Positions 13,588 through 15,670 of a DNA stretch of 64,000 nt are shown here, one piece after another. This stretch comes from Alphaproteobacteria bacterium (GTDB taxonomy: Bacteria > Pseudomonadota > Alphaproteobacteria > Reyranellales > Reyranellaceae), in assembly GCA_016869975.1 (NCBI GenBank), contig VGCZ01000005.1:62001-126000 (forward strand). Reading direction: 5' to 3'. The notes under the pieces were generated by a model. It was not told the origin of the DNA and did not search any database. It worked only from the letters and a program-made list of their open reading frames with translations. The translations under genes were made by a program, and so were the position numbers. Position 1 is the stretch's first letter. Each line of letters begins with the position of its first letter.

Positions 13588-13815
13588 ATGAACGCTTCGG
13601 ACGATACAAAACCCGCCAACGAGCCCGCGGCGACGCCGTTCGTGGAGCATCGCGTCGAAAACGCGAAGCCGAAGCCGGCCGCCGGTTCGGAAGATGGCGC
13701 GAAGAAAACGCCGACAGCGACGTCGGTGAAGGTTCGCGAGATCGGCGGCCCGCCGGGCCCCGAGCCGACGCGCTACGGCGATTGGCAGTTCAACGGCAAG
13801 GTCACCGACTTCTAG
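13588..13815 (+). CDS. DUF1674 protein, SDHAF4-like succinate dehydrogenase assembly factor
   Basis: This is a 75-residue soluble protein. The disordered N-terminal half leads into the family signature EIGGPPGPEPTRYGDWQFNG and ends KVTDF. Its mitochondrial relative SDHAF4/Sdh8 binds flavinylated SdhA and assists complex II assembly, and the same role is inferred here. The gene is divergent from htpX (114 bases between starts). No clear Shine-Dalgarno is seen. A structured RNA or 3' UTR with a strong terminator lies about 170-260 bases downstream. Confidence 0.88.
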   Translation: MNASDDTKPANEPAATPFVEHRVENAKPKPAAGSEDGAKKTPTATSVKVREIGGPPGPEPTRYGDWQFNGKVTDF

Positions 13816-13886: not shown

Positions 13887-13920
13887 TCACACTCACGTCG
13901 GTGTGACCAAAATATCACAG
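13887..13920. promoter_or_regulatory. Nested inverted repeats, possible operator
   Basis: TCACAC and GTGTGA face each other across eight bases, and the second arm is reused in TGTGA-N8-TCACA (within GTGTGACCAAAATATCACAG). The spacing is two bases longer than a CRP/FNR-type site. It lies just upstream of the putative small RNA, where an operator would make sense. I see no convincing -35/-10 pair beside it. Confidence 0.3.
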
Positions 13921-13969
13921 AAACGCCCCATTTGGGCCTAGCACCGGCCACCCAGGGTTCCTATCTCCC

Positions 13970-14075
13970 TCGTGTATCTCCCCCGAACGTGGTTCCCCCA
14001 AGCCACGTTCTAGCCTCGCAAGAGGCTTTGGCCGTCGTTCCAACTCCCCCCGGAACGGCGGCCTTCTTTTTTTTG
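13970..14075 (+). ncRNA. Putative three-hairpin small RNA with C-rich loops
   Basis: Three stem-loops follow one another. The first pairs GAACGTGG (13985-13992) with CCACGTTC (14003-14010) around a loop containing TTCCCCCA. The second pairs GCCTC with GAGGC (14013-14026) around GCAA. The third is a 12-base stem (14030-14041 with 14052-14063, one G-U pair) around AACTCCCCCC, followed by a run of T. The last is a textbook intrinsic terminator. C-rich loops that could pair with Shine-Dalgarno sequences are typical of several alphaproteobacterial small-RNA families (for example alpha-r14 type). The 5' end is a guess. It may instead be the 3' UTR of the DUF1674 gene. Confidence 0.5.
14030..14075 (+). 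terminator. Strong intrinsic terminator
   Basis: A 12-base stem with one G-U pair closes a ten-base C-rich loop and is followed by TTCTTTTTTTT on the plus strand. It ends the putative small RNA or the DUF1674 transcript and faces the end of dnaA. Confidence 0.88.
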
Positions 14076-14087
14076 TCCGTACTCACT

Positions 14088-14157
14088 CGTCCTGAGCGCA
14101 GCGAGGGATCTGCAGCGAGCGGGCACTCATTCCGAGGAGATCCTTCGCTGCGCTACA
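14088..14157. repeat. Dispersed palindromic repeat, family B copy 2
   Basis: AGCGCAGCGAGGGATC (14095-14110) and GATCCTTCGCTGCGCT (14139-14154) form a 16-base inverted repeat with one mismatch. The outer part CGTCCTGAGCG matches the copy near 977. It sits just past the dnaA stop and would fold in the dnaA 3' UTR. Confidence 0.6.
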
Positions 14158-14197
14158 GGGGCCGCGGACGGCCCCTGCGGATGACGGGGTGTACAGA

Positions 14198-15670
14198 TCA
14201 GCCCTGCAGCATGCGCTTCAGCAGCTCGACGTCCTCGTTGATCGTGTTGTCGCTGCCGCGCAGCTCCTCGATCTTCCTGACCGCATGCATCACGGTGGTG
14301 TGGTCGCGGTTGCCGAACTTGCGGCCGATCGAGGGAAGGCTGGCCTGCGTGAGGTGCTTGGCGAGATACATCGCCACTTGGCGTGGCCGCGCGACCGAAC
14401 GCGAACGCCTGGGCGAATGCATCTCCGCGACCTTGATGTTGTAGTGCTGCGAGACGCGCAGCTGGATCTCCTCGATCGTCACGCGCCGGTCGGCGGCGCG
14501 CAGCACGTCGTGCAGCACTTCCTGCGCCGTCTCCAGCGTGGTGTCGCGCCCGACCAGCGTGGCGTGCGCGATGACGCGGTTCAACGCGCCTTCGAGCTCG
14601 CGCACGTTGGTGGCGATCTTGTGCGCGAGGAACTCCAGCACGCGTTCGGGGACACGCACGCCGGCCTGCTCGACCTTGCTCTGCAGGATGCCCAGGCGCA
14701 GCTCGTAGGTCGTGGCGTGGATGTCGGCGACCAAGCCGTGCGAGAGGCGCGAGCGTACCCGCTCCTCAAGGCCCTCGAGCTCCTGCGGCGACTTGTCGGA
14801 CGACAGCACGATCTGGCGGTTCTGGTCGACCAACGCGTTGAAGGTATGGAAGAACTCCTCCTGGCTGGTGTCCTTGCCGCAAATGAACTGCACGTCGTCG
14901 ATCATCAGCACATCGACGCCGCGAAACTGCTCCTTGAAGCCCTGCGTGCTCTTGGTCCGGAGCGCCTGGATGAAGCGGTTCACGAAGGTCTCGGCCGAGA
15001 GGTAGAGCACGCGGCGCTGCTGGTCGCGCCCGCGCACGGCGCTCCAGATCGCGTGCATCAGATGCGTCTTGCCCAGGCCGACGCCGCCATAGAGAAACAG
15101 CGGGTTGAAGGTCGGCGCGTCGGTCTCGGCCACGCGCCGCGCCGCGGCGTAGGCGAACTCGTTGGGCTTGCCGACGACGAAACTGTCGAAGGAAAAGCGC
15201 GGATCGGGCTGGCCGACCAGATCGTCGTAGACACGCTCCGCCGAACGCGACACCGGTGGACCGGTGCGCGGCATGGGTAACGAGGCGGGATGGCCATTGG
15301 CCGCCGCCGGCAGCGGACCCGGCTCGACCGAGGGGGCGTCGGCCAATTCGGGTCCCTTGCGTCCGGCCGATGCGGCCGGTTGCACGATGATCTCGACGAC
15401 GCGCAACTCCGGGTTCTCTTTGGTCCACAGCGACTGGATGCGATCAAGGTAGTGACCAACGACCCAGTCGCGCATGAATCGCGTCGGTGTCGCCAGCCTC
15501 AGCCGGCCGTCGCGGACTTCACTGAGCCGCAAAGGCTCGAGCCACGTCTTGTAGGCCTTCTCGCTGACATCCTGCTGCAGACGCTCCTGCACCCGCTTCC
15601 ACTGCGCATCAAACGTCCCCCTGGAACGGTCGCCCATGCCTAACCCCGTCGCTTGGCCGTTTTCCGGCAT
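14198..15670 (-). CDS. dnaA: Chromosomal replication initiator DnaA
   Basis: DnaA binds 9-base boxes at oriC and unwinds the origin. It has 490 residues. Domain I is at about 20-90 (WKRVQERLQQDV). A variable linker runs to about 145. The AAA+ domain has Walker A GGVGLGKTH near 194-202 and Walker B MIDDVQF near 253-259. The C-terminal box-binding domain carries PRQVAMYLAKHLT and NRDHTTVMHA near 453. The ATG at 15670 has GAGGAA eight bases upstream. A rhodanese gene lies 72 bases upstream on the same strand, an unusual insertion between dnaA and rpsT. Confidence 0.98.
   Translation of the reverse strand: MPENGQATGLGMGDRSRGTFDAQWKRVQERLQQDVSEKAYKTWLEPLRLSEVRDGRLRLATPTRFMRDWVVGHYLDRIQSLWTKENPELRVVEIIVQPAASAGRKGPELADAPSVEPGPLPAAANGHPASLPMPRTGPPVSRSAERVYDDLVGQPDPRFSFDSFVVGKPNEFAYAAARRVAETDAPTFNPLFLYGGVGLGKTHLMHAIWSAVRGRDQQRRVLYLSAETFVNRFIQALRTKSTQGFKEQFRGVDVLMIDDVQFICGKDTSQEEFFHTFNALVDQNRQIVLSSDKSPQELEGLEERVRSRLSHGLVADIHATTYELRLGILQSKVEQAGVRVPERVLEFLAHKIATNVRELEGALNRVIAHATLVGRDTTLETAQEVLHDVLRAADRRVTIEEIQLRVSQHYNIKVAEMHSPRRSRSVARPRQVAMYLAKHLTQASLPSIGRKFGNRDHTTVMHAVRKIEELRGSDNTINEDVELLKRMLQG

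Follow-up and report, generated by a model that had tools for sequence, protein, structure and literature searches.

A conserved small RNA gene with C-rich loops in Reyranellaceae and its probable relatives upstream of ccmA

The window (the whole stretch of DNA that was analysed, 64,000 nucleotides long) contains a gap between a DUF1674 gene (PF07896, 54 bits; 13588–13815, plus strand) and a convergent dnaA gene (14198–15670, minus strand). The original prediction placed a small RNA here, in an otherwise empty gap after an SDH assembly factor gene. The gap does follow the DUF1674 gene, but it is not wholly empty, as it also holds a REP-like palindrome (approximately 14091–14185). A conserved promoter is predicted at 13938–13966. 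The features of the locus are as follows.

13915–13927, plus strand: upstream element TCACA-N5-GCC, its TCACA lying within the palindrome TGTGA-N8-TCACA (13902–13919)
13938–13943, plus strand: −35-like hexamer, CTAGCA
13961–13966, plus strand: −10-like hexamer, CTATCT, after a spacer of 17 nt
13974–14074, plus strand: small RNA gene of about 101 nt, with predicted 5′ end at 13974 (covariance model match of 111.5 bits, orthologues, and an invariant block starting at 13974)
13974–13984, plus strand: single-stranded C-rich 5′ end, GUAUCUCCCCC, a candidate seed, unpaired in the fold
13985–14010, plus strand: hairpin 1, 9–10 bp, with CCCCC in the loop (13995–13999), from sequence, fold and paired changes
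14012–14027, plus strand: hairpin 2, a short stem with a stable tetraloop (GCAA in the window; UUCG or CUCG in Reyranella), from fold and comparison
14030–14063, plus strand: hairpin 3, the terminator stem, 12 bp, loop AACTCCCCCC, from sequence, fold and strong covariation
14067–14074, plus strand: T8 tract of the intrinsic terminator, with TTC between it and hairpin 3, from sequence

The three consecutive hairpins and the terminator with eight T, as first described, are confirmed by sequence and fold. The minimum free energy of 13950–14076 is −53.2 kcal/mol, compared to −30.2 ± 3.3 kcal/mol for 200 dinucleotide shuffles (z = −6.98), none of which was as good. The loops are, in order, TCCCCCAA, GCAA and AACTCCCCCC, and the 5′ end may possibly form a third anti-Shine-Dalgarno segment besides the two C loops. 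Among relatives the length of the RNA ranges from 100 to 111 nt, with insertions and deletions that break the reading frame, and start codons are almost absent. A coding role for the locus is therefore excluded. The REP-like palindrome, CCTGAGCGCAGCGAGGGATC...GATCC..CGCTGCGCT, lies between the RNA and dnaA. It is also present in a second locus (L004), again downstream of the RNA, and has two matches in the window when up to three mismatches are allowed, against 0.06 expected.

At the DNA level, a search of 61 related genomes recovered the region from 35, every one inside Reyranellaceae. A covariance model built from 17 sequences (R1) has a match in 69 of 75 Reyranellaceae genomes, including 50 of the 51 good ones, nearly always as one strong copy; in one of the 69 (G030) the match is weak, at 26 bits. 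In the single genome examined from another family of Reyranellales, the match is 77.5 bits. The 5′ part, searched as an exact pattern, gave 58 stretches, whose records are Reyranella, Vineibacter, Enhydrobacter aerosaccus, and unclassified or loosely named Alphaproteobacteria MAGs. Reyranella massiliensis and R. aquatilis are among the carriers of the gene. The C-runs and the 5′ end are almost fixed, whereas the stem sequences vary. Across Reyranellales the 5′ end is near-invariant, the exceptions being three loci with an additional C and L147, which has GGCTCT, and the tetraloop of hairpin 2 swaps GCAA or GCGA (GNRA) for UUCG or CUCG.

Compensatory changes in the stems, which had been proposed as a test of the RNA, are indeed found among the relatives. 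With 17 distinct sequences in a plain MAFFT alignment, standard pairs make up 96.9% of pair cells, and five pairs are changed on both sides, all of them in hairpin 3. In 66 model-aligned matches (48 distinct rows) both-side changes occur in 20 of the 27 pairs, in an alignment that is fitted to the model structure and that takes in four distant or paralogous sequences. The covariation score of these 66 matches is 0.248, compared to 0.089 for shuffles and at most 0.055 for slid controls. In hairpin 1, both sides of one pair are changed within Reyranellales (G037/L147), and those of more pairs across families.

Two other elements came to light in these genomes. One is a diverged second copy of the RNA (L148; G031:C227:3832-3931, minus strand), which scores 47.5 bits and has no 5′ CUCCCCC; its neighbours are a gene for a tripartite-tricarboxylate-type binding protein and a GNAT-like gene. 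The other is a different conserved hairpin RNA-like element in three Reyranella genomes (L302, L303 and L311 in G008, G012 and G014), between a LysR-type regulator gene and a TPR-protein gene, which scores 31–33 bits with a second covariance model (R2).

A plain sigma-70 consensus scan of the promoter region found no match, and the promoter could be recognised only through comparison of relatives. These have a consensus CTAGCR-N17-CYATNT at a fixed distance from the RNA start. The −35-like box is present in 57 of 60 loci, and each of these has its CTAGC starting 36–37 nt ahead of the RNA. A hexamer of the type C[CT]ANN[TA] is found 13–14 nt before the start, likewise in 57 of 60. The block GCCC[CT]A[AT]TTGGG[TC]CTAGC, or a close form of it, occurs in 57 of the 60 Reyranellales loci. 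This spacing fits the geometry of a −35 box, a 17-nt spacer, a −10 box and a +1 position, and would place the RNA start at about 13974. On the basis of its conservation, its covariation and this promoter geometry, both the existence of the RNA gene and its structure can be regarded as established at the level of sequence comparison. The proposal of a new small RNA, with C-rich loops capable of anti-Shine-Dalgarno pairing, is thus strongly supported, with the terminator as a further line of evidence.

The genes around the RNA are not constant. In most relatives the RNA is followed closely, on its own strand, by ccmA, whose P-loop codons come approximately 230–330 nt past the RNA start; the identity of ccmA was verified with TIGR01189 for three RNA-adjacent genes. 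The upstream neighbour varies, and includes oligopeptide permease, NAD-glutamate dehydrogenase and others. In the genus of the window, the RNA lies between DUF1674 and dnaA, and the best ccmA match of the genome is next to dnaN, at a distance of about 24 kb. In Vineibacter, two genes, one of them AraC-type, separate the RNA from ccmA. The RNA and its promoter are retained in both, despite the lost adjacency. The 24-kb separation in the window's genome is read as a later rearrangement. At the ccmA locus of this genome (L279; G000:C5:51385-53308) ccmA is divergent from dnaN, with dnaA 24 kb away next to the RNA, an arrangement that represents a rearrangement near the replication-initiation genes. 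Taken together, the RNA's own promoter and its changing neighbours argue clearly that it is independent of the adjacent genes. A search of the open-licence literature for a small RNA at ccmA found none.

Outside Reyranellales R1 gave weak matches, of which three precede ccmA. A set of ccmA loci was taken from an even draw of Alphaproteobacteria, and the flanks were scanned unfiltered with R1. Among 69 loci not chosen for an RNA match, 18, from 17 families, have a match with E < 0.01 upstream of ccmA and on the same strand; these distant matches are weak (14–45 bits) and are aligned to the model's own structure. No match with E < 0.01 was seen elsewhere in the flanks of the 69 loci, and one just over the cut-off (L167, E = 0.011) is downstream of ccmA. 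One of the 18 (L226) has no C-rich loops. A count of hairpins in 62 ccmA loci of this kind gave 24 with CCCC loops (in 16 loci) against five with GGGG loops (in five loci). Rfam matches were below threshold at every distant ccmA-type locus tested. Some weak R1 or R2 matches away from ccmA (L065, L075, L080, L084 and L087) resemble ordinary terminators, and were set aside.

The upstream element provides a further link. The general form of TCACA-N5-GCC, TCA[CT][AC]-N5-GCC, is present in 44 of 60 Reyranellales loci. It is also found in 11 of 21 distant ccmA-type loci, a count that is somewhat post hoc because the pattern was read by eye from part of the same data. The controls, which are not post hoc, gave 0 of 12 non-ccmA covariance model matches (lolA/xth RNAs included), 1 of 44 ccmA loci without an RNA match, and 1.3% of shuffles. 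The element, at −59, is probably a transcription-factor site of the promoter. In some relatives the palindrome TGTGA-N8-TCACA is replaced by long GC-rich inverted repeats; it could be a regulator site or an upstream terminator.

The common position, strand, plan and upstream element support the view that the RNA in the window descends from an alphaproteobacterial RNA upstream of ccmA. Of the traits that define such a ccmA-associated C-loop family, it has the three hairpins, C-rich loops 1 and 3, the C-rich 5′ end, the terminator, its own promoter and the upstream element. It lacks the position directly upstream of ccmA, which is found in most relatives.

The RNA was compared with known families. 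A covariance model search against Rfam, which the original prediction suggested as a check, found no family that passes its threshold, and there is no match at gathering thresholds anywhere in the window. Sub-threshold matches to ctRNA_pGA1, 6C and Scr3202 reflect a mere likeness of a C-rich terminator hairpin. The RNA was originally likened to alpha-r14. As regards the plan, this likeness stands: alpha-r14 (NfeR1, RF02344) is also alphaproteobacterial, around 100–120 nt long, with three hairpins, anti-Shine-Dalgarno loops and a terminator. However, the definition of alpha-r14 asks for three hairpins that each carry a CCUCCUCCC motif in the loop (PMC10746234), while the loops here carry CCCCC with no CCUCCUCCC, and hairpin 2 has a GNRA, UUCG or CUCG loop that is not C-rich. 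The RF02344 threshold of 58.8 bits is never reached, the best sub-threshold Rfam match being 30.6 bits (L005). Matches resembling alpha-r14 sit at loci other than ccmA, and one genome (G006) has a better alpha-r14 match, of 44.5 bits, at a separate locus (C15:15350). Membership of alpha-r14 was rejected on these grounds.

The sX13 RNA of Xanthomonas (RF02232) is similar in having an unstructured 5′ end, three stable stems and C-rich loops, but it is gammaproteobacterial, its third C loop has no counterpart here, and its model gives 20 bits in L005 against a threshold of 50. The 6C or B11 RNA of Actinobacteria (RF01066) has six-C hairpin loops, the last of them in or near the terminator, but consists of two C-loop hairpins with no short hairpin between them, and scores 22.8–23.8 bits against a threshold of 47. 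CcsR1 (RF02791) and anti-hemB RNA (RF02837) have a C-rich hairpin loop near the terminator and give weak matches under their thresholds; here too the CCUCCUCCC motif is a point of difference. Since alpha-r14 fails on both score and loops, and sX13, 6C, CcsR1 and anti-hemB fail on score, the RNA is assigned to a new family. In its action we infer that it is closest to sX13, 6C/B11 and alpha-r14.

When carried on rigid hairpins, C-rich loops can repress mRNAs that have G-rich motifs at or near the ribosome-binding site, as described for sX13 (PMC3771888) and NfeR1 (PMC10746234). In sX13, the 4C and 5C loops repress mRNAs with G-rich motifs near their starts, and Hfq is not required (PMC3771888). 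The anatomy of the RNA matches that of sX13 and NfeR1, with fixed loops and covarying stems, which makes repression of this kind its likeliest action. We hypothesise with fair confidence that it is an independently transcribed, trans-acting regulatory RNA of about 100 nt. Transcription would start near 13974 from the conserved promoter and end at the hairpin 3/U8 terminator. The rigid stems would expose three single-stranded C stretches (5′ CUCCCCC, CCCCC in loop 1, and CUCCCCCC in loop 3), and in several mRNAs these would pair with G-rich Shine-Dalgarno or start regions, blocking the entry of ribosomes as in sX13, 6C/B11 and NfeR1. The pairing, the repression and the targets are all suggested by analogy with these RNAs. 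Sites of the form GGGGGAGAT-N{1,12}-ATG occur in each of six genomes, some of them ahead of plausible start sites for envelope or exported proteins. The genes differ between genomes, and no site common to several of the six was seen; no target is therefore claimed.

Three other explanations have to be weighed against a trans-acting repressor. The position of the RNA shortly upstream of ccmA and on its strand, seen in most Reyranella and in 17 further families, is what would be expected of a cis-acting leader or attenuator whose terminator hairpin controls read-through into this cytochrome c biogenesis gene. However, ccmA is remote in the window's genus and separated by other genes in Vineibacter, with RNA and promoter kept. 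The RNA is therefore not a ccmA leader, and such a function alone cannot explain its neighbourhoods; nor does attenuation need an unstructured C-rich 5′ end or fixed loops. We regard this explanation as unlikely. It is less probable still that the locus is only the terminator and 3′ UTR of the DUF1674 (sdhAF4) mRNA, or an RNA derived from that 3′ UTR. In the window the RNA does come immediately 3′ of DUF1674 and in the same orientation, but the upstream genes of its relatives are many and different, the promoter block is conserved, and hairpins 1 and 2 and the 5′ end are kept beyond the needs of a terminator. Because the conserved promoter, at its fixed distance, sets the predicted +1, the RNA is not the tail of the DUF1674 mRNA, and the comparison thus bears out the original expectation of a separate RNA.

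The remaining explanation is that the C-rich loops titrate a G-rich small RNA or an RNA-binding protein rather than mRNAs, so that the RNA is a decoy (sponge) or a protein-binding RNA. Several similar C segments would suit titration, and there is a precedent in Caulobacter, where CrfA and the C-rich small RNAs SisA-D pair with each other (PMC12559287). Against this, the known three-hairpin C-loop RNAs, sX13 and NfeR1, act on mRNAs, and we consider titration as doubtful as a ccmA leader. The trans-acting repressor is thus the preferred reading.

It is worth considering a possible connection to another C-loop RNA. RusT of Caulobacter is flanked by lolA and xth (PMC11005374). It has four stem-loops and a different locus from the three-hairpin RNA in the window, which lies between DUF1674 and dnaA and has its relatives upstream of ccmA. 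With R2, C-loop RNAs of three hairpins were also found following lolA (L283, L292, L293) or preceding xth (L285), at 43–63 bits; the identity of LolA was confirmed in L283, and that of the exonuclease domain in L285. RNAs of this type (these four and L294) fall in families f129, f45 and f157. They share a locus with RusT, to which they are likened by position and not by sequence, and may possibly represent a wider RusT family. A bolder proposal, which we put forward tentatively and which may well prove wrong, is that a single ancestral C-loop RNA of Alphaproteobacteria, located next to ccmA and equipped with a conserved regulatory site of its own, was the source of copies at other loci, such as the lolA-xth RNAs at the position of RusT and the diverged L148 paralogue. 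This would make an unrecognised class-wide superfamily linking respiration, or iron or heme status, to the translation of many mRNAs.

On comparative grounds, then, the locus is a real and previously undescribed small RNA gene, whose exposed C-runs, by analogy with known RNAs, probably silence other genes by masking the ribosome-binding sites of their mRNAs. It contributes an RNA family outside all Rfam models, which is conserved in practically all good Reyranellaceae genomes and is probably far older. It would also be an alphaproteobacterial case of C-loop targeting of ribosome sites that is independent of the CCUCCUCCC motif. The position at ccmA and the common upstream element provide a route to the signal that controls the RNA, and a way to ask whether the C-loop RNAs at ccmA and at lolA-xth (RusT) have a single origin.
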